Origin: Opitutaceae bacterium
GTDB lineage: Bacteria > Verrucomicrobiota > Verrucomicrobiia > Opitutales > Opitutaceae
Reading direction: 5' to 3'
DNA: 51,011 bases
Assembly: GCA_017988885.1 (NCBI GenBank)
Contig: JAGNQV010000003.1
Span: forward strand, 1 to 51,011
This document shows, in pieces, positions 15,812 to 27,757 of this stretch. The notes under the pieces are model-generated. The model worked only from the letters and a program-made list of their open reading frames with translations, was not told the DNA's origin and searched no databases. How positions within the stretch are numbered: the stretch's first letter is position 1; each line of letters begins with the position of its first letter. A program made the position numbers and the translations under genes.

Positions 15812-16717
15812 ATGAAAATCCTGAAAATCTTCGGCATCGTCGTCGGGATTCATGTCTTCGCCCTCATCCTTATTTTTGCGAACCCCGGATGCAGCACCTT
15901 GTCCAAAACCGCGACGAAGCCGGCTGGCACCGTGGCGCCAACCGCGGCGACGGCCGCCGTCTCGCTGCCCACCAGTCTGGCGCTCAACTACGGCTCTGCG
16001 ACCGAGGCGTCGGCCGCCACCGACACTTCGCCGGTCATGGTGGCCCCCATCACCTTCAACCCCGATGTGCCGGCGAGCACCGCGGCCGTGCGTTACAGCC
16101 CGACCCGGCCAAATACGCCGGCGGCGTCCACCTTGCAGACCGTGCCGGTGGCCGACGTCATTCCGGCTTCGACCTACACCGTGACCAAGGGCGACAGCCT
16201 GTGGTCGGTGGCGAAGAAAAATCATCTCTCAGTCGCCGAGCTCGCCGGGGCCAATAATCTTTCCGCCGGCACCACGCTGCGGCTCGGGCAGAAGCTCATC
16301 ATCCCCGGCAAGTCAGGCGCCGTCGCCGTGGCAGCGGAAGTCGCACCGGCAACGTTGCCCGAGGCACCGGCCCCGAAGCCTACGGGTGAATCGATCACGC
16401 ATGTCGTGAAACCCGGAGAAACCCTCGGCGGGATTGCGCGCAAATATCAGGTTTCGGTCGGCGAAATTGCGACCGCGAACAATATCACCGATCCGGCCAA
16501 GATCCGTCCGGGCCGTGAGCTCGCCATCCCCGGTTGGAAATCGCCGGCGGTGAAGGCGGCGGCCGTCGCGCCGACCGAAAAGACGGTTGGGCCGTCACCC
16601 GCGGCGCCGGTTTTCACTTTGCCGCCGCCCGGACAGGATTTGGACAAGGGTTTCAAGTCCACGGGTGATGCGCCCGTGATCAAGGTCGAGGAGGCCAGTC
16701 CCTTTAGCTCGAACTGA
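15812..16717 (+). CDS. LysM-domain cell-wall-binding protein inside the dcw cluster
   Basis: The 301-residue protein begins with a hydrophobic segment (FGIVVGIHVFALILIFA) that would act as a signal peptide or anchor, ending at NPGCST; the cysteine lacks a canonical lipobox, so lipidation is doubtful. An Ala/Thr/Pro-rich linker leads to LysM 1 at about 118-164 (YTVTKGDSLWSVAKKN, ending RLGQKLIIPG), and after a linker LysM 2 at about 196-244 (HVVKPGETLGGIARKYQV, ending ELAIPG). The C-terminus is Pro-rich with no enzymatic domain. LysM binds GlcNAc-containing glycans, so a septal peptidoglycan-binding role is inferred from the position between murD and ftsW. The start has no purine-rich ribosome-binding site. 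Confidence 0.85.
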   Translation: MKILKIFGIVVGIHVFALILIFANPGCSTLSKTATKPAGTVAPTAATAAVSLPTSLALNYGSATEASAATDTSPVMVAPITFNPDVPASTAAVRYSPTRPNTPAASTLQTVPVADVIPASTYTVTKGDSLWSVAKKNHLSVAELAGANNLSAGTTLRLGQKLIIPGKSGAVAVAAEVAPATLPEAPAPKPTGESITHVVKPGETLGGIARKYQVSVGEIATANNITDPAKIRPGRELAIPGWKSPAVKAAAVAPTEKTVGPSPAAPVFTLPPPGQDLDKGFKSTGDAPVIKVEEASPFSSN

Positions 16718-17890: not shown

Positions 17891-19014
17891 GCACCTACCT
17901 CATTTCCTGCGGTGGCACGGGCGGCCATCTTTCGCCCGGCATCTCGCTGGCCGAAGGGCTCACGGGCCGCGGTCACGCGGTGACACTGCTTATCAGTCAG
18001 AAGAAAGTGGATGCGCGGCTCATTGAGAAATATCCGCAGTTCAAGTTCCTGCGCGTGCCCGGCACCGGCTTCGCGTGGCATCCGCTGGGCTTGCTGCGCT
18101 GTGTTTTTTCACAACTGCAGGGATTTGTTTTCTGCCTGCGGCTCATCCGGATGAAACGGCCCGACGGCATCATTGGTTTTGGCGGCTTCACTTCTGCCGG
18201 CATCGCGTTCGCGGGCTGGCTGCGGAATGTGCCGGTCGCACTGCATGAATCAAATCGCGTCCCCGGCCTGGCCATCCGGGTGCTCGGCCGGTTGGCGCAG
18301 CGGGTTTACCTGCCGCCGGGCATCCGGCTCGCCAGTGTGCGGGCGCGGAATATTCGCTACGTCGGTATGCCTGTGCGCCGTGAGATCCAGCGGTTGCCGG
18401 CGACGTCCGCCCGCACGGCGCTCGGGTTGGATCCGGTGCAAAAGGTGCTCGTGGTTTTTGGCGGCAGCCAAGGCGCCGGGCCGCTGAACGACTGGGTGCG
18501 GGCCAAGCTGCCGGCGCTCGCGGCCGAGGGCATTCAGGTTTATTGCGTGACCGGTCTGGGCAAGGGCGAGGCGGAGGTGCGGGACTTCAGGACGCGTGCC
18601 GGTGCGCCGGTCCGGTCCATTTTTGTGCCGTTCTGCGACCGGGTGGCCGAGTTGCTTTCCGCGGCGGACCTCGTGCTTTCGCGTGCGGGCGCCGGCACGA
18701 TTGCCGAGCTGATTCGCTGCGAGACCCCGGCGATTCTCGTGCCCTATCCGCAGGCGGCCGATGATCACCAGCGGGCCAACGCCTCGTTTTTCGAACGGCA
18801 GGGTGGCGGCGTCGTGGTCGAGCAAACACGGCTCGCTGCGATGGAGTCCGAGGTGCTCGATGTGATTTTCAACGACTGGCTCATCCGCAAGTTCCGTGGC
18901 AATCTGCAGCGCATGGACCGCGCGAACTCCCTCGATCTGATGCTGGCGGACATTGAGGCGCTCGCCACGCCGCCCTCCGCGGGTGGCTCCACTTTACAGC
19001 CTGCGCCGGTATGA
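17887..19014 (+). CDS. murG: UDP-GlcNAc:lipid I N-acetylglucosaminyltransferase MurG
   Basis: The 375-residue GT28 enzyme opens with ISCGGTGGHLSPGISLAEGL, the first G-loop. ALHESNRVPGLAIR corresponds to the HEQN(A/V)xxG motif, here with S replacing Q. VFGGSQGAGPLND is the third glycine-rich loop, and the C-terminal donor-binding region reads LSRAGAGTIAELIRCETPAILVPYPQAADDHQRANA. It converts lipid I to lipid II at the inner face of the membrane. The ATG overlaps the ftsW stop by 4 bases, and the stop overlaps the murC-murB start by 4 bases. A long in-frame extension into ftsW (to 17569) is spurious. Confidence 0.95.
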   Translation: MSTYLISCGGTGGHLSPGISLAEGLTGRGHAVTLLISQKKVDARLIEKYPQFKFLRVPGTGFAWHPLGLLRCVFSQLQGFVFCLRLIRMKRPDGIIGFGGFTSAGIAFAGWLRNVPVALHESNRVPGLAIRVLGRLAQRVYLPPGIRLASVRARNIRYVGMPVRREIQRLPATSARTALGLDPVQKVLVVFGGSQGAGPLNDWVRAKLPALAAEGIQVYCVTGLGKGEAEVRDFRTRAGAPVRSIFVPFCDRVAELLSAADLVLSRAGAGTIAELIRCETPAILVPYPQAADDHQRANASFFERQGGGVVVEQTRLAAMESEVLDVIFNDWLIRKFRGNLQRMDRANSLDLMLADIEALATPPSAGGSTLQPAPV

Positions 19015-21326
19015 GCACACCGGTGCTACCACTGCTCTTTGGCCGTGCGGTGCGGCACATCCATTGCGTCGGCGTGGGCGGCATGGGCATGGCCCCGCTG
19101 GCCATTTATCTGGCCCAGACCGGTTTCGCCGTCACGGGGGAGGACGACGGGATGACGGATGACGTGCAGCACCAGTTGCGGCGCGCCGCGGTCGCCCTGG
19201 GTCCCGTGCCCGCGGCATGCGAGCTGGTCGTTTGCTCTTCGGCCATCGCGGCGACGCATCCCGCTTTTATGGCGGCGCAGGCGCGCGGCCGACCGCGCGT
19301 GCGGCGCGGCGAACTGCTGGCCGAGGTGACCCGCGACAAAAAACTGGTCGCGGTCTGCGGCTCCCACGGCAAGACCACGACGACGGCGATGCTGATCACC
19401 GCGTTGCGGCAGGCGAATTTTCCCGCGGGTTATGTGTTGGGCGGCCTCTTGGGGGACGAGACGCTGGCGCCGGCGTGCGTGGGCGCCAATGACTGGGTCG
19501 TCGCCGAAGTGGACGAAAGCGATGGCACCATCGACCGGTTTGCGCCCGAGCTCACCGTGGTGGTGAACCTCGACTGGGACCACCCTGACTATTACCGGGA
19601 ACCGGCGGACTTGGAAAAAACCTTTGCGGCGCTGGTGGCGCGCACGCGCGGAGCAGTGCTCGTGAGCGACCGGTGCGCGCGTTCCCTCCGGCTGGCCCCG
19701 GCGGCCCAGACCTTTGGGCACAGCGGCAACTTTTCCTACAGTCTCGAACCGGAAGATCGCGAGCACATGCAACTGCAGTTGGGCGGGGCGTTCGCGCTGG
19801 CCACCGCCACGGTGCGGGCGCACGGCGATTTCAACGCGGCCAATGCCACGGCGGCGCTGGCCGCGGCCCAACTGATGGGGGCAAAGCTCTCCCCCGCGGC
19901 GCTGGCGGATTATCCGGGCGTCCGGCGCCGGCAGACGGTGCTGCATGCGGCCGACGGCCTGACCGTGCTGGAGGATTACGCGCATCATCCGGCGGAAATC
20001 CACGCGTTGCTGACGGGGCTGCGCGGGCGAATGGCGGGGACGGGCCGTTTGGTGGTGGTGTTTCAACCGCACCGGTTCAGCCGCACCGCGCAATTCAAGG
20101 TGGAGTTTGCAGCGGCGCTGGCGCTCGCTGACCGGGGACATTTGCTTGAGGTTTATGCGGCGGGCGAGGCCCCGGTAGCCGGCGGCACGGCGGCGGATAT
20201 TTACGCGGAGCTAAAAAAAAACGCCCCGAACGCGCAGGTGGATTACCTCCCGGGGGGCGACGAGGCGCTTTTTCGCACGCTGTCGCGCGAGATCCGGCCG
20301 GGCGACTGGGTGGTTTTTGCCGGCGCCGGCGACATCGATCGCAAGGCGCGGGCCTGGCTGGCGGGGTGGCGGGAGGAAACGATGAAAGCTGAGCGCTGGA
20401 ATAATTTTTTCGCGCGGTTGACCCCGCAAATGGGCCGGGACACGCAGCTGCGACGCGAGGAACCACTGGCACCCAAGACGACTTTGCGGGTGGGCGGCAC
20501 CGCGCGGGTTTACGCCGAGCCAGCGAATGCGGCGGACTTGCAGACGTTGCTGCGCGAGGCCGCGGCGGAGGAAGTGGAGGTGTTTGTGCTGGGCCGCGGT
20601 TCCAATCTCATCGTGCCGGATGAAGGCGTGGAGGGCTTGGTCATTTCGCTGGCTCATGAAAGCTGGGCGGTTTTCGAGCCGCGCGACGGAGGGCGCGTCT
20701 GGGTCGGCGCGGGCTTGCGGCTGAAAAAACTTTGCGGATCGGCGGCCAAGGCGGGCCTCACGGGCTTTGAGTTTCTCGAAGGCATCCCGGGGAATGTCGG
20801 CGGCGCGCTCCGCATGAACGCCGGGGCGATGGGCGGCTGGATGTTCGATGTGGTGGAGGAAGTGCAACTGATGACGTTGGCCGGCGAAGTGCGCACACTG
20901 CCAAAGGCCGCGATGCAGGTGGATTACCGGCATTGCGCGGAACTGCACCACGCCATTGCCTTGGGCGCCTTGTTGCGACCGGCGGCCCAGGCCGATGCCG
21001 GGGCGATCAGCCGGCAGATCGATGTTTACCGGAAAAAGCGCCAGGAGAGCCAGCCGCGCGAATCCAGTGCCGGTTGCATTTTCAAGAATCCGCCGGGCAA
21101 TTCCGCCGGCCGGCTCATCGACCAGAGCGGACTGAAGGGCGAGCGGGTGGGGGGCGCCGAAGTGTCGCCGGTCCACGCCAATTTTATCATCAACCGCGGC
21201 GGCGCCACGGGCGAGGACGTGCTGGAGCTCGTCCGGCGCGTGCGGGCGCGCGTGCGCCAGGCAACGGGCGTGGAGTTGGAACCCGAGGTTTTGCTCTACG
21301 GAAAAAAATGGAAGGATGTTTTATGA
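19011..21326 (+). CDS. murC-murB: MurC-MurB fusion: UDP-MurNAc:L-alanine ligase and UDP-MurNAc dehydrogenase
   Basis: A single 771-residue frame. Residues 1 to about 455 are MurC: HCVGVGGMGMAPLAIYL, the P-loop GSHGKT at 117-122, EVDESDGTIDRFAP, and NLDWDHPDYY, with the C-terminal domain (EDYAHHPAEIHALL). From about 458 the sequence is MurB: a FAD-binding half (RVGGTARVYAEPAN, VLGRGSNLIVPDEG, EGIPGNVGGALRMNAGAMGG) and the catalytic end (SAGCIFKNP, AGRLIDQSGLKG, GGAEVSPVHANFI, ELEPEV). The residue in the place of E. coli Ser229 is Cys689. Both enzymes act on consecutive substrates (MurB makes UDP-MurNAc, MurC adds Ala). An internal ribosome-binding site and ATG at the junction may also give free MurB. 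Confidence 0.95.
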   Translation: MSTPVLPLLFGRAVRHIHCVGVGGMGMAPLAIYLAQTGFAVTGEDDGMTDDVQHQLRRAAVALGPVPAACELVVCSSAIAATHPAFMAAQARGRPRVRRGELLAEVTRDKKLVAVCGSHGKTTTTAMLITALRQANFPAGYVLGGLLGDETLAPACVGANDWVVAEVDESDGTIDRFAPELTVVVNLDWDHPDYYREPADLEKTFAALVARTRGAVLVSDRCARSLRLAPAAQTFGHSGNFSYSLEPEDREHMQLQLGGAFALATATVRAHGDFNAANATAALAAAQLMGAKLSPAALADYPGVRRRQTVLHAADGLTVLEDYAHHPAEIHALLTGLRGRMAGTGRLVVVFQPHRFSRTAQFKVEFAAALALADRGHLLEVYAAGEAPVAGGTAADIYAELKKNAPNAQVDYLPGGDEALFRTLSREIRPGDWVVFAGAGDIDRKARAWLAGWREETMKAERWNNFFARLTPQMGRDTQLRREEPLAPKTTLRVGGTARVYAEPANAADLQTLLREAAAEEVEVFVLGRGSNLIVPDEGVEGLVISLAHESWAVFEPRDGGRVWVGAGLRLKKLCGSAAKAGLTGFEFLEGIPGNVGGALRMNAGAMGGWMFDVVEEVQLMTLAGEVRTLPKAAMQVDYRHCAELHHAIALGALLRPAAQADAGAISRQIDVYRKKRQESQPRESSAGCIFKNPPGNSAGRLIDQSGLKGERVGGAEVSPVHANFIINRGGATGEDVLELVRRVRARVRQATGVELEPEVLLYGKKWKDVL
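20371..20384 (+). promoter_or_regulatory. Internal ribosome-binding site and ATG at the MurC/MurB junction
   Basis: GGGAGG at 20371-20376 stands 5 bases before an in-frame ATG at 20382 (residue 458 of the fusion, MKAERWNNFF), exactly where the MurB domain begins. A separate MurB of 314 residues could be translated from the same message. The site could also be a relic of a former gene junction. Confidence 0.5.
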
Positions 21327-22258
21327 ATTTACCCATCATGGCGGTTTTTGCCGGCGGCACGTCGACCGAACGGGAAGTTTCCCTCGGTTCCGGCCGGGCC
21401 TGCGCGAGTGCGCTGGCGCGGTCGTTCCCCACGCGGCTTTTTGAAATCACGGCCGACGCACTGCCGGTGGGGCTCGATCCGGCGCGCCACGTGGTATTTT
21501 CCACCTTGCACGGCACGTTTGGCGAAGACGGCGGGATGCAGCGACTGCTCGATGCCGCCGGCGTGACCTACGCCGGTTGTGATGCGGCGAGCAGTGCGCT
21601 CACCATGGATAAGACGCGCACGAAGCAGGCGGCGGCCGCCAGCGGAGTCGCCGGGCCGAAAGCCGTGTGTTTTTCGACCGCAGCCAAGCCGGCCGTGGAT
21701 GAAGTGGTCGCCCAACTCGGCGAGCAGGTGGTGGTGAAGCCCAATGCCGAGGGGAGCAGTGTCGGCTTGAGCATCGTCAATGATCGTGCCGGTTTGGCGG
21801 CGGCGCTCGCCGGCATCCGTGCAGGAGACTGGTTGATCGAGCAGCGCATCATCGGGCGCGAGCTTTCGGTCGGGGTGCTCCGCGGTCGGGCGATGGGCGT
21901 GGTGGAAATCCGGCCCAAGTCTGGCGTCTACGACTACGCGAGCAAATACACGAAGGGGCTGACGGAGTATTTTGCGCCCGCGCCGTTGGATGAGGAACTC
22001 ACCCGGGAAACGCAGACCGCGGCCGAAAAGGCCTTCGCGGCCTGCGGTTGTCGCGACTACGCGCGCGTCGACTTCATGCTCGCCGGGAAAAACACGCTTT
22101 ATTTGCTGGAAATCAACACGCTGCCCGGCATGAAAGAAACCAGCTTGCTGCCGATGAGTGCACGCTGCGCGGGGCTGGATTTTACGGCGTTGGTTCGGGA
22201 ACTGGTCATGCCTGCCGTGCAGCGTTTCAATTCTTTGGCGGGGCTTGTTCGCCTGTGA
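21323..22258 (+). CDS. ddl: D-alanine--D-alanine ligase
   Basis: The 311-residue ATP-grasp enzyme has an N-terminal VFAGGTSTEREVSLGSG, then HGTFGEDGGMQRLLDAAG and the substrate-binding SALTMDKTRTK, ATP-grasp strands (VVKPNAEGSSVGLSIV) and the metal-binding end DFMLAGKNTLYLLEINTLPGM. It makes the D-Ala-D-Ala used by the MurF encoded in this cluster. The ATG at 21323 overlaps the murC-murB TGA (ATGA). The stop at 22256-22258 overlaps the ftsQ GTG. A variant linked to vancomycin resistance (D-Ala-D-Lac) is not suggested. Confidence 0.95.
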   Translation: MNLPIMAVFAGGTSTEREVSLGSGRACASALARSFPTRLFEITADALPVGLDPARHVVFSTLHGTFGEDGGMQRLLDAAGVTYAGCDAASSALTMDKTRTKQAAAASGVAGPKAVCFSTAAKPAVDEVVAQLGEQVVVKPNAEGSSVGLSIVNDRAGLAAALAGIRAGDWLIEQRIIGRELSVGVLRGRAMGVVEIRPKSGVYDYASKYTKGLTEYFAPAPLDEELTRETQTAAEKAFAACGCRDYARVDFMLAGKNTLYLLEINTLPGMKETSLLPMSARCAGLDFTALVRELVMPAVQRFNSLAGLVRL

Positions 22259-23283
22259 GCCGAGAAACCATTCCCCCCCCGCACACCCGCAACTGGCGAG
22301 AAATTCCCCAGCAGGTGAAACCGCGCGCCATGTCGTCCGGCGGCCGGCGCCGGCTGGCTTTTTCCACCCTGAAGACCGTCGGGGGCATCGCCGTGCTCCT
22401 GGGCTTGCTCACGGTGGGTTGGTTGGTCGTCGATTCGCTGCAGCAGCATCCGCAATCCATCGCCAAGACCGCCGACACTTCTCCGGTGAAGGAAATTGCC
22501 CTTACGACCGACGGCGTGCTCGACCAGACGTGGATCAAGCAGACGCTGGCGCTGCCGCGCACCGCGTCGTTGATGGAACTCGATTTGTTGCAGTTGCGCG
22601 AACGTCTGCTGGCCAGCGGGCAGGCGCTGACCGCGACTGTCAGCCGCAAGTTTCCGGCCACGCTCGCGGTCGCGGTGGTCGAGCGCACGCCGGTGGCCCG
22701 GGTCATGGCCCAGCTCGGCAATGCCGCGCCGCGCGAATTCCTCGTGGCCCGCGACGGGGTGGTCTATGCCGGCGCCGGTTATCCCCCCGAGTTGGTCAAC
22801 GGCTTGGTCTGGCTGGATGGCGTGAAGCTGGTGCGCAAAGGCGATCAATTCCTGCCGGTCGAGGGCATGGCCGTGGCCGCCGACTTGCTGGCCAAGGCGC
22901 GCAATGAAGCGCCGCACCTCTACCAGACCTGGAAAGTGGTTTCACTCGCCCGGCTGGAATCGGATAATGAAATTCAAGTGCGGACGGACAAAGTGGAAAA
23001 AATTATTTTCAGCGTGAAGGACGATTTCTTTCGCCAGCTCGCGCGGCTCGACGTGTTGGTGGATATGATTCCCGCGCAAGGGGAGCGGCCGTTGCGGGAG
23101 ATCGATCTCTCGATCGGCCGCACGGCCGATGGCCGGACGGAAGTGCCGGTCACGCTGGACCTGCCGCAGCCCGGCACGGGCAAAGGCGCCATGACGCGTC
23201 CGGCCGTCCCGGCTCCCGCCGTTTCCACGCCTGCCTTTAATCCATTCCTCCATCCACAGAAGAAACCGTCACGTGAGCTCTAA
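22255..23283 (+). CDS. ftsQ: Division protein FtsQ (POTRA domain)
   Basis: A 342-residue bitopic protein from the GTG at 22255, which overlaps the ddl stop (GTGA). A cytoplasmic stretch of about 40 residues precedes one transmembrane segment (about 44-62, VGGIAVLLGLLTVGWLVV). A POTRA-like region follows (VKEIALTTDGVLDQTWIKQ, LDLLQLRERLLAS, ATVSRKFPATLAVAVVERTPVAR), then the beta domain. The C-terminus is Pro/Ala-rich and longer than in E. coli. FtsQ links the cytoplasmic ring to the periplasmic synthases. Recognition rests on the POTRA pattern plus location directly before ftsA. Confidence 0.88.
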   Translation: MSRETIPPPHTRNWREIPQQVKPRAMSSGGRRRLAFSTLKTVGGIAVLLGLLTVGWLVVDSLQQHPQSIAKTADTSPVKEIALTTDGVLDQTWIKQTLALPRTASLMELDLLQLRERLLASGQALTATVSRKFPATLAVAVVERTPVARVMAQLGNAAPREFLVARDGVVYAGAGYPPELVNGLVWLDGVKLVRKGDQFLPVEGMAVAADLLAKARNEAPHLYQTWKVVSLARLESDNEIQVRTDKVEKIIFSVKDDFFRQLARLDVLVDMIPAQGERPLREIDLSIGRTADGRTEVPVTLDLPQPGTGKGAMTRPAVPAPAVSTPAFNPFLHPQKKPSREL

Positions 23284-24484
23284 AACCACTTTCATCGGCG
23301 CCGTCGAAATCGGCACCTCCAAGGTTACCGTGCTGGTCGGTGAATACACCGGCCGCGAACTCGCCATCATCGGCCGCGGCGAATGCCAGTCGCGCGGCAT
23401 CATCAAGGGCACCGTCGTGGACTATAAGGCCGCCAGCGAGTGCACCCACAGTGCGCTGGAGCTCGCGGAGCGCGAGGCCGGCGAGCGCATCGATCTCGTG
23501 TTTCTCGCCCAGACGGGCGGGCACTTGGAGGGGTTTTACAACGAGTCCAATGTGAGCGTGAAAGCCGCGGACAACATGATCGGCGCCGAGGATATTCGCA
23601 CGGTGTGCGAGCTCGCCCGTTCCAAGGAATTGCCCGAGGGCCGCATGGTCGTGCACCATATCCGCCGCCCGTTCCGCGTGGATGGCCGGCTCGTCCCGAA
23701 TCCCGAGCATCTTGTCGGCCAGCGGCTCAATGTCGGTTATTGGACAGTGCACGGTCAGGAAACCAAGCTGGCTGATCTCATCCACGTCATCCGCGGTTTC
23801 AATCTCGAGGTGCGCGAACTCGTGCTCTCCAGTCTCGCCTCCGGCCATATGGTCACCACCGCCGAGGAGCGCCAGCACGGGGTGCTCGCGATTGATATCG
23901 GGGCGGGCACGACGGATTTTGTGCTTTACCGCGACGGGGTGCCGCACACGACGGGCGTGCTGCCGGTCGGGGGCGCGCATCTCACGAATGATCTCAGCAT
24001 CGGCCTGCGGCTGACCGAGGGGCAGGCGGAAAAGCTCAAGCTCCGTTGGGGCCGCGCCAGTGTGCAGACGCGGGACAAGGCGGAGAAGGTCTGGCTCGAC
24101 GGCAATTTCGCCATCGGTGACCGCCAGTTTTCCCGCTACGCCATCGAGCAAATCACCATGGCGCGCACTTGGGAAATTTTGGAGGTCGTCAAAAAGAAAC
24201 TCGGCGGCGCGTTCACGCCCGACACCTGTGCCGCGGGCGTGGTGCTGACCGGCGGCACCGCCAAACTCTCGGGTATCGCGGAAACCGCCGCCAAGGTTTT
24301 TGGCGTGCCCGCCCACTTGGGTGAGACGCCCGGGTGGGTGGCGGAAAACCTCCGTGATCCCGGCTATAACACCGCGCTGGGCCTGCTTTACTACGGGGTC
24401 AGCTCCCAATCCGAGCGCTTGGTCACCCAGCGCCGCAAGGGTGGTTTCTTCCAAGCCGTCAACCGTCTCTTCGCCACTTCCTGA
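23273..24484 (+). CDS. ftsA: Division protein FtsA
   Basis: The 403-residue actin-like protein contains FIGAVEIGTSKVTVLVGE (phosphate 1), AIDIGAGTTDFVLYRDG (phosphate 2), GGAHLTNDLSIGL and a C-terminal VVLTGGTAKLSGI (adenosine motif). The 1C subdomain typical of FtsA, rather than MreB, lies between. The end (RKGGFFQAVNRLFATS) forms a short amphipathic helix fit for membrane tethering. FtsA anchors FtsZ to the membrane. The GTG start at 23273 overlaps the last 11 bases of ftsQ. ftsZ begins 5 bases after the stop. Confidence 0.95.
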   Translation: MSSKTTFIGAVEIGTSKVTVLVGEYTGRELAIIGRGECQSRGIIKGTVVDYKAASECTHSALELAEREAGERIDLVFLAQTGGHLEGFYNESNVSVKAADNMIGAEDIRTVCELARSKELPEGRMVVHHIRRPFRVDGRLVPNPEHLVGQRLNVGYWTVHGQETKLADLIHVIRGFNLEVRELVLSSLASGHMVTTAEERQHGVLAIDIGAGTTDFVLYRDGVPHTTGVLPVGGAHLTNDLSIGLRLTEGQAEKLKLRWGRASVQTRDKAEKVWLDGNFAIGDRQFSRYAIEQITMARTWEILEVVKKKLGGAFTPDTCAAGVVLTGGTAKLSGIAETAAKVFGVPAHLGETPGWVAENLRDPGYNTALGLLYYGVSSQSERLVTQRRKGGFFQAVNRLFATS

Positions 24485-24489
24485 GCGCC

Positions 24490-25752
24490 ATGAACCTCAA
24501 CGAACTTCCCCTCGAGCACGAGCTCCTCACCGACCGCAACATCGCGATCAAGCTGGTAGGCGTCGGCGGCGCCGGCTCCAACGCCGTGGACCGCCTGAAG
24601 ATGGAAAACTTGGAACGGCTGCAAATGGCGGTGATCAACACCGACTATCAGGCGCTCTCCAGCTCACCGGTGCAGGACAAGGTGCTCATCGGCATGAGCG
24701 TGACGCGCGGGCTCGGCGCCGGCGGCGATCCCGATCTCGGCCGCGAGGCCGCCGAGGCGGACCGTGAAAAAATCGCCGCGGTGGTGAAAGATTGCGACTT
24801 GGTTTTCCTCATCGGCGGCATGGGCGGCGGCACGGGCAGCGGGGCGCTGCCGGTCGTGGCCGAGACGGCGGCGGAAACCGGCGCGCTGGTGATCGCCTTT
24901 GTGACGATGCCTTTCAGTTTTGAAGGCGGCCGCCGCCTGAAGCAGGCGGAGGAAGGCCTGCTGGCGCTGCGCCGCGTGTGCGATGCGGTGATTCCGCTGC
25001 CCAACGACATGCTGCTGCAAGAGGGCGCGGCGGATGCGTCGGTGCTCGATTCCTTTGCCCGCGCCGACGAATGGATCGGTCGCGGCGTGAAATCCATCTG
25101 GGCGATGCTGTTCAAGACCGGCCTGATCAACGTGGATTTTGCCACGCTCCGCCAGTTGTTCCAGCAGCGCGGCGGCAAGACGCTTTTCGGCCTCGGCGAG
25201 GGCACGGGCGAGACCGCGGTGGTCGATGCCATCGCCAGCCTCAAGCTCTGTCCCTTGCTGCACACGCCCGAGTTTTCCCGCAAGGCCGACCGCCTGCTCG
25301 TCAACATCATCGGCGGCACCGATCTCACGCTGCCCCGCGTCAACGAGTTGATGACCGCCATCACCGACCAGTTCGGCCGTGAATCGCACGTCATCATGGG
25401 CGCGGTGATTGACGAAAGCATGCAGCACCGCGTCGAGGTTTGCGTCATCGGCATGAGCGACATGGGTGGGCGCACCCCAGTCCGCCGGCCCGTGGCCGCC
25501 ACCCCGCGCACGACCCGGCCGCCCTTTGCCCCCGCGGAGGTTGTCGGCGCGGCTCCGGCGAATGCGCCAGCGGCCCCGGCGGAGGTGCTGATTCCGGCCC
25601 TGACTGACGCCGAAAAGGCCGCGCAGGATGAATTCGGTTTTGGCGAGATCGAGAGCCGCGGCCATTTTGAGAAGACCGATCGCAATCTCTTCGATGGTCA
25701 GGATCTCGATGTGCCGACCTATCTGCGCAAGGGGATCCGGATCAGTCTTTGA
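24490..25752 (+). CDS. ftsZ: Division tubulin FtsZ with an altered T7 loop
   Basis: The 420-residue GTPase has IKLVGVGGAGSNAVDRL near the N-terminus, NTDYQALSSSP, TRGLGAGGDPDLG, the tubulin signature GGGTGSG at 112-118, and PLPNDMLLQ. In the T7 loop, which reaches into the neighbour's nucleotide site, E. coli has NVDFAD; here the sequence is NVDFAT (N214, D216, T219), so the second catalytic Asp (E. coli D212) is Thr. After a Pro/Ala-rich linker the conserved C-terminal peptide is DVPTYLRKGIRI, used for binding FtsA and others. The gene ends the dcw cluster. No frameshift is seen; the substitution is in a well-formed gene. Confidence 0.97.
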   Translation: MNLNELPLEHELLTDRNIAIKLVGVGGAGSNAVDRLKMENLERLQMAVINTDYQALSSSPVQDKVLIGMSVTRGLGAGGDPDLGREAAEADREKIAAVVKDCDLVFLIGGMGGGTGSGALPVVAETAAETGALVIAFVTMPFSFEGGRRLKQAEEGLLALRRVCDAVIPLPNDMLLQEGAADASVLDSFARADEWIGRGVKSIWAMLFKTGLINVDFATLRQLFQQRGGKTLFGLGEGTGETAVVDAIASLKLCPLLHTPEFSRKADRLLVNIIGGTDLTLPRVNELMTAITDQFGRESHVIMGAVIDESMQHRVEVCVIGMSDMGGRTPVRRPVAATPRTTRPPFAPAEVVGAAPANAPAAPAEVLIPALTDAEKAAQDEFGFGEIESRGHFEKTDRNLFDGQDLDVPTYLRKGIRISL

Positions 25753-25789: not shown

Positions 25790-27757
25790 ATGATTGAGGC
25801 GAGTGAGCATTTTTATCAGGACGACCCTCAGGTCGGTCCGGCGGATGTCCGCACGCGGTTGCGTGATGTGGAATATTTTTTCCTCGGCAACGGTCTGATC
25901 CAAGCCGCCGTGCAATGGGCGCCGGCGGGTGAGGGCACGCCGCTTGGCCTGTTGGTGATGAACCCGGATCGGCTCCGGAAAAAGCGGGAGGCGTTGACCA
26001 TGCATGCGGAGAACGGACTGGCCGCGACCCAATTACAGTTGAGTGTGGCGCAACAGGCTTTCACCGCCGTGGCCGGTCGCGTGCAGGTGGCATGGAGCAA
26101 GTCGGTTCAGCCGGTCGTCACCGCCAAATGGGCCGGAGGCGGAGTGCAGGTGGAGGAAAAATTTTCGTGTCCAACGTGGCGGCAGCCCGCGCTTTGCCGG
26201 GAAGTGATCTTGCGCAATCCGCGCAAGGTGCGCGTGCGCTGCGTGCTCACGACCGGCGTTGGCGCGAACGTAATTCACCGCCGGCTCACACTGGCCGCCG
26301 GGGCCAAACGCACGCTGTGGATCGGCTACACTCTGGCGACCGCGGCTGATCGCGTGCAGGTAGCCTGGTCGTCCCGCCTGCCGCAGGAGGTCCGGTGCCG
26401 GAGCTTCTGGTCGGGGCTGGCGCGGGTAAAATTCGGGCACGACCGGCTGGATCATTTTTTTCGGGCCGCCTGCCGGCAACTGCCGGTGGCGGTGTCGCGG
26501 CGCGGCTGCATTGATGGCAGCATCTGGCAATACAACCTCGAATGGCTGCGCGACCAGTCCATGGTGGCGCTGGCCCTCACGCTCATCGGCGCGACCGGGC
26601 CGGCGACGACTATTTTTGACCGGCTGCTCACCCAGTTTGTCACGCCGGAGGGAGACACGCTGGATTCCAGCGAAAAGCGCAACCCCGCCGAGGTGGAACT
26701 CGACCAGAACGGATTGCTGCTGTGCACGCTGAAGGATTATGTGCTGTGGACCGGCAACGTGGACTTGGTGCGCAAGCATTGGGCCAAGATCGAGGCGGTG
26801 GCCGAATTTCCCCTGCGCGCAGTGTTTCGGCACCCTGCGAGCGGATTGCTCTGCAACACCCGCGAGTTTTGGGAACGGCATGCGGCGCATGGCATCGAAC
26901 CCGGCTTGGAGCTGATCTATCAATGCTACGTGGCGCTGGGGCTGTCGGCCGCGGCCGTGCTCGCCCGGCTGACCGGCCGCGCGGCGCAGGCGCAACGCTG
27001 GGCAACCGAAGGCGCGCGGCTCAAAACGGCCCTGCTTGAGCATCCGCAGTTTCGGATGCACGACGCGCGCGGGTTCATCAAGCGCCGGGCGCCCGACGGC
27101 CGGGTGCAGGAAACCATCACGCCCACGGCCGGCGCACAACTGCCGGTCGAGGTGCCATTGGGGGCAGCGGGTCCACACTCCCTCAACCCGGACGCCGCCT
27201 CGGTGCTGCCGATTGCACTCGGCCTGATTGCGCCGCGCTCGGCGCTGGCCCGGCGCACGTTGCAAACCACGGAAACACTCTGGAATCAGGCGTGGAGCAA
27301 TGGCGGTTACGGCCGTTATCATGTGACTTCCGAACCCGACTCACCCGGCGGCTGGCCGTTTGCCTCGCTGTTCGTGGCCCGGGCCGCGATCGAGGCGGGA
27401 CAGGATGCAAAGGTTTGGCGGGTGCTGCACTGGTTGGATAGTCTGCCGGGGGCGAAGGCCGGCACGTGGTTCGAGTTTTACGGCCGCCGGCTCGCGCCGC
27501 CGTTTCCCCAGGTGGGCATCGTGGTGTGGAATTGGGCGGAGTTGATCATCCTTTATGTGCAACATTTCCTCGGCGTGCGGCCCGGCGAGCACGGCTTGGT
27601 GATCGCCCCGCATCTGCCCAAGGGTCTGACGGGCGCGCAGGCTGGGCTGCAGCTGGGCGGGCGTCGGCTCCGGTTGCAGGTCCGCCGCGGTCAAGGGGGC
27701 CAAGCGGACAAAATCACGGTCAATGGCCGGGCTTGGCGTGGGGCCCGGACGGTCTGA
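25790..27757 (+). CDS. Six-hairpin ((alpha/alpha)6-barrel) glycosidase-like protein
   Basis: The product is 655 residues from the ATG at 25790. The N-terminal third is beta-rich (FFLGNGLIQAAVQWAPAGEG), resembling the beta-sandwich before the barrel in GH15- and GH94-type enzymes. The rest is helical with a conserved start of the barrel (WQYNLEWLRDQSMVALAL, the W-x-R-D element near 251-256), LDQNGLLLCTLKDYVLWTG, and later FEFYGRRLAPPFPQVGIVVWNWAE. These recall glucoamylase, amylo-1,6-glucosidase and related families, but the exact family and acid/base residues cannot be fixed by eye. No signal peptide is seen, so it is probably cytoplasmic and could act on glycogen or a similar glucan. It starts 37 bases after ftsZ. 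Confidence 0.65.
   Translation: MIEASEHFYQDDPQVGPADVRTRLRDVEYFFLGNGLIQAAVQWAPAGEGTPLGLLVMNPDRLRKKREALTMHAENGLAATQLQLSVAQQAFTAVAGRVQVAWSKSVQPVVTAKWAGGGVQVEEKFSCPTWRQPALCREVILRNPRKVRVRCVLTTGVGANVIHRRLTLAAGAKRTLWIGYTLATAADRVQVAWSSRLPQEVRCRSFWSGLARVKFGHDRLDHFFRAACRQLPVAVSRRGCIDGSIWQYNLEWLRDQSMVALALTLIGATGPATTIFDRLLTQFVTPEGDTLDSSEKRNPAEVELDQNGLLLCTLKDYVLWTGNVDLVRKHWAKIEAVAEFPLRAVFRHPASGLLCNTREFWERHAAHGIEPGLELIYQCYVALGLSAAAVLARLTGRAAQAQRWATEGARLKTALLEHPQFRMHDARGFIKRRAPDGRVQETITPTAGAQLPVEVPLGAAGPHSLNPDAASVLPIALGLIAPRSALARRTLQTTETLWNQAWSNGGYGRYHVTSEPDSPGGWPFASLFVARAAIEAGQDAKVWRVLHWLDSLPGAKAGTWFEFYGRRLAPPFPQVGIVVWNWAELIILYVQHFLGVRPGEHGLVIAPHLPKGLTGAQAGLQLGGRRLRLQVRRGQGGQADKITVNGRAWRGARTV

Follow-up and report, generated by a model that had tools for sequence, protein, structure and literature searches.

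The window, a stretch of 51,011 nucleotides, is contig 85 of a 3.17-Mb MAG (82% complete) from a member of the Opitutaceae, order Opitutales. It holds a complete dcw cluster in which ftsZ comes last: ftsI/pbp–murE–murF–mraY–murD–(LysM protein)–ftsW–murG–murCB–ddl–ftsQ–ftsA–ftsZ. The features on which the analysis turns are as follows.

22048–23283, forward strand: ftsQ, with a POTRA_1 domain
23273–24484, forward strand: ftsA, directly upstream of ftsZ (TIGR01174, 288 bits; cut-off 175.9)
24490–25752, forward strand: ftsZ, 420 aa, with matches to TIGR00065, PF00091 and PF12327
24643–24651, forward strand: D52 and Q54 (E. coli D45 and Q47), the T2 loop / helix H2 partners of the neighbour's T7 loop; kept
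24721–24723, forward strand: G78 (E. coli G71), T3 loop; kept in 134 of 134 Opitutales sequences
24823–24843, forward strand: tubulin signature GGGTGSG (residues 112–118), intact and in agreement with the pattern GGGTG[ST]G
24934–24936, forward strand: R149 (E. coli R142, S. aureus R143), arginine-finger-like; R in 131 of 134 Opitutales sequences
25129–25146, forward strand: T7 (synergy) loop NVDFAT, residues 214–219, codons aac gtg gat ttt gcc acg
25135–25137, forward strand: D216, aligned with E. coli D209 and S. aureus D210; the sole T7 carboxylate
25144–25146, forward strand: T219 (acg), aligned with E. coli D212 and S. aureus D213
25708–25734, forward strand: C-terminal conserved peptide DVPTYLRKG, intact and kept in Opitutaceae

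Elsewhere in the region, the LysM-type protein is encoded at 15812–16717, between murD and ftsW, and murC and murB are fused into a single gene (19011–21326; 771 aa), an arrangement that reportedly also occurs in Verrucomicrobium spinosum. A large ORF without a Pfam match at E 1e-5 (25790–27757) separates ftsZ from obg.

The product of ftsZ scores 311.3 bits against the TIGR00065 equivalog profile (cut-off 295.2), 145.8 against PF00091 (cut-off 33) and 53.3 against PF12327 (cut-off 27), and a family search identified it as the sole FtsZ of its genome. An AF2 model (pTM 0.73) has the FtsZ fold: it superimposes on S. aureus FtsZ (VIA Z 37.1, rmsd 2.4, 301 residues), and Foldseek returned TMt values mostly of 0.85–0.90. 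In its fold, its ftsA-adjacent position in the dcw cluster, its nucleotide-site residues and its C-terminal peptide the protein is an ortholog of the FtsZ of E. coli, B. subtilis and S. aureus.

The T7 loop differs. Studies of a small number of model species underlie the usual view that both aspartates of this loop are indispensable if FtsZ is to assemble and to hydrolyse GTP. Alignment with FtsZ from E. coli, M. tuberculosis, B. subtilis and S. aureus equates N214, D216 and T219 of the window protein with E. coli N207, D209 and D212 (E. coli numbering is used for sites from here on). Compared with the two-aspartate pattern NxDxxD/E, the loop has an acid at 209 (D216) and a threonine, T219, at 212. 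The first-pass annotation had read the loop in just this way, and both the codons and the alignment agree with it.

How widely the state is shared was determined from FtsZ families sampled at order, class and phylum level, the Opitutales set comprising 134 distinct sequences (families f1–f6) assigned by the order label of the genome tool. Not one of the 134 has an acid at position 212, where T (93), A (21), S (10), Q (9) and G (1) are found; all 134 keep D209. In each of the first 110 loci the T7 loop opens with N-[VLI]-D-F; a small or polar residue comes next, and the site of D212 is then occupied by T, A or G. It is the non-acidic state that runs throughout the order; threonine itself, on which the first-pass annotation had centred, accounts for only 93 of the sequences. 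A catalytic role for the threonine hydroxyl in place of the missing acid is ruled out because alanine and glycine, besides serine and glutamine, also occur at the site.

In the FtsZ tree the Opitutales sequences form a single clade (SH-aLRT 99) whose members all share this state, and the loss of D212 is therefore best placed on the stem of the order: it would have been lost once, before the order diversified, and would represent an ancestral, order-wide condition rather than the trait of one genome. Since that time at least 16 changes have taken place at site 212, none of them to D or E, although 31 of the 134 codons lie a single base from one of these residues; site 209 has not changed at all.

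The incompleteness of the MAG raises the question of whether a sequencing or binning error, a decayed gene, or a second, canonical FtsZ elsewhere in the genome might account for the missing aspartate. There is virtually no chance of this. The same state is present in all members of the order, among them closed genomes, which have one FtsZ each, and a record not labelled as a MAG (L075, strain EW11), and dN/dS over the ftsZ core is 0.02–0.11, which denotes strong purifying selection. Error, pseudogene and second copy are each ruled out on these grounds, and the absence of an acid at 212 is far beyond chance or error. The earlier argument that the gene is unlikely to be decayed, made from the intact GGGTGSG and DVPTYLRKG motifs and the dcw cluster, is strengthened by a dN/dS well below 1.

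The remainder of the active site is conserved. The window protein keeps the equivalents of D45, Q47, G71, E138, R142 and N207; among the 134 Opitutales sequences G71, E138 and N165 are invariant, and N207 (129), D45 and R142 (131 each) and Q47 (118) nearly so. Q47 is replaced by K or R in 14 of the 134 sequences; in E. coli, Q47K FtsZ fails to complement (PMC5405962).

What a single carboxylate might accomplish is suggested by filament structures of S. aureus FtsZ, in which D210 swings to position the attacking water while D213 stays still and is linked by a water bridge to the arginine-finger-like R143 (PMC8936486). Since the equivalent of D216 moves to place the water in that enzyme, and the rest of the site is kept in Opitutales, hydrolysis with D216 alone would be the best-supported mechanism. 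According to this mechanism the upper subunit would bring just one carboxylate of its T7 loop, D216, to the GTP of the lower subunit, and we infer that D216 positions the attacking water as D210 does in S. aureus; at the site of D212 there would be only T, A, S, Q or G, small or polar residues that supply no catalytic carboxylate. On this basis the window protein is probably an ordinary division FtsZ, the only one of its cell, with a working one-aspartate site.

The principal rival, which takes further the slow hydrolysis put forward as the main reading in the first-pass annotation, is that the protein is nearly non-hydrolysing and forms long-lived filaments, with little treadmilling or with disassembly brought about by other proteins. 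Mutants at the same residue lend this some force. In E. coli the D212G substitution reduces GTPase activity about tenfold or more (PMC5405962, PMC7320174) and makes membrane-bound rings static (PMC7320174); a residual 7% for D212A is quoted at second hand in PMC8142252. D212G does not complement other than with rare genomic suppressors, yet the suppressor strains grow on FtsZ-D212G (PMC5405962), so that cells whose background has been adjusted can divide with an FtsZ of low GTPase activity. In S. aureus, D213N abolishes assembly of FtsZ (PMC8936486). These proteins, together with Arabidopsis FtsZ1 D275A, resemble Opitutales FtsZ in that the same residue is replaced and D209 kept; they differ in that they are impaired versions of a protein tuned for two acids, whereas the Opitutales state is ancestral and fixed under purifying selection. 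If the site were dead, moreover, its residues would be expected to drift in the way that N207, Q47 and R214 have drifted where D209 was lost, but in Opitutales D209, N207, D45, Q47 and R142 are almost invariant, and across the phylum both T7 acids are absent from just 4 of 240 distinct sequences. We consider a nearly inactive enzyme unlikely, though far from negligible. The expectation of an effect on GTP hydrolysis thus stands in part: by analogy with the E. coli mutants, hydrolysis with one aspartate is probably slower, or the geometry of water and cation altered, while the retention of D216 and of the rest of the site leads us to infer that hydrolysis continues.

Another residue of the same chain could instead have assumed the role of D212, as had been suggested as a further option. 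That D never returns to the site, despite being one base away in many species, would accord with this, as would a set of charge changes derived in Opitutales: E274 is replaced by K or R and R235 by A (window residues 283 and 243), and acids have appeared at E. coli positions 118, 171, 307 and 315. However, when families lacking D212 but keeping D209 were compared with families having both, no alignment column showed the gain of an acid, a histidine or a base, and the acids and charge changes specific to Opitutales are not common to the other D212-less lineages in the alignment. Nor do Opitutales T7 loops contain a shifted acid. Two individual candidates were also rejected: the T3 acid (D80, E. 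coli N73) is D in two-aspartate families and in M. tuberculosis as well, and an aromatic residue or histidine at E. coli 46 (Y or H) is present in only 78 of the 134 sequences, all from one family. Compensation within the chain is accordingly improbable. The R235 and E274 replacements, which with the loop NxDxxT/A/S/Q/G set Opitutales FtsZ apart from the canonical protein, constitute an order-specific change in charge and possibly alter a contact at the bottom interface.

Beyond the order, the T7 aspartates have been lost in both directions. Other Verrucomicrobiia have usually lost the opposite aspartate: in the 62 distinct sequences with data, an acid is present only at 212 in 38, at both sites in 18, only at 209 in 5 and at neither in 1. 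For the remaining classes of Verrucomicrobiota (44 with data) the corresponding numbers are 10, 11, 20 and 3. Each of the two losses demands at least 12–15 changes on the tree. Parts of the tree have weak support, but the data are better described if either loss makes the other slower than if the two are independent (LG tree, LRT 16.3, p 0.0027; mixture tree, LRT 19.2, p 0.0007), also with Opitutales removed (LRT 13.8, p 0.008). A Fisher test with one state per family agrees (p 0.0018); an independent-pairs test yielded too few supported pairs for a verdict, and the simulated count of double-lost tips is by itself not significant (P 0.12).

These data bear on a further possibility, namely that constraint on the T7 loop is simply relaxed in the fast-evolving FtsZ of the phylum and that the missing aspartate has no mechanistic meaning. 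Verrucomicrobial FtsZ has been called among the most divergent (PMC9871819), the cut-off of the FtsZ model is reached in only 15 of 145 Verrucomicrobiota genomes, and both aspartates have been lost many times. Relaxation does not readily explain why D209 is unchanged in all 134 Opitutales sequences, or why the two losses are negatively associated even without the order; we regard it as highly improbable.

The opposite reduction is seen in FtsZ of the Verrucomicrobiales type (L163–L167, L189, L207, L234 and L287; families f8 and f31), V. spinosum included, which has G at 209, often lacks N207 and keeps D212; NVGLDD and RMGIAD are examples of its loops. This departure could be said to go further than the one in Opitutales. 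One genome of this type, G477 (8.2 Mb, 100% complete), carries exact matches to both of the published internal sequencing primers for V. spinosum ftsZ (PMC1845146) and must on that account be V. spinosum or something very near to it. The T7 loop of its FtsZ (L287) reads VRMGIADL, with N207 replaced by R, D209 by G, and D212 kept. Like the Opitutales protein it is encoded by a dcw gene and has a single T7 acid; unlike it, the aspartate that has gone is the other one. Transposon sequencing shows ftsZ of V. spinosum to be essential (PMC12283558), and it follows that at least one species studied in this phylum, albeit outside Opitutales, lives with an FtsZ that lacks a T7 aspartate.

Judged from sequence, the one-aspartate FtsZ of Opitutales is a real, order-wide and functional protein, and a new variant of FtsZ; a literature search found no paper describing a missing T7 aspartate in Verrucomicrobiota. 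It is plausible, if short of probable, that FtsZ needs one T7 carboxylate at either position, and that Verrucomicrobiota have repeatedly been cut down either to 209 alone (Opitutales and several other classes) or to 212 alone (Verrucomicrobiales and relatives, often with loss of N207), which would give two GTP-hydrolysing geometries in dividing bacteria. In its residues, at any rate, a catalytic site supposed to be fixed has been pared down to one acid by different routes in different orders. An order without one T7 aspartate, within a phylum that drops either but seldom both, amounts to a natural mutagenesis experiment, and makes testable both the role of each carboxylate and the GTP turnover that the Z-ring requires.

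The four sequences devoid of both acids, L188, L262, L273 and L275 (loops RINRSH, NVTPGI, SSTFPS and TNNFAH), would be the best candidates for a non-hydrolysing FtsZ. Two members of family f13 (L277 and L278) are so divergent that alignment of the T7 loop is poor or fails altogether. Four genomes from other classes (G346, G354, G373 and G405) encode a second, weakly FtsZ-like protein (for example L281), which scores 29–36 bits in reading frames of 366–376 aa.
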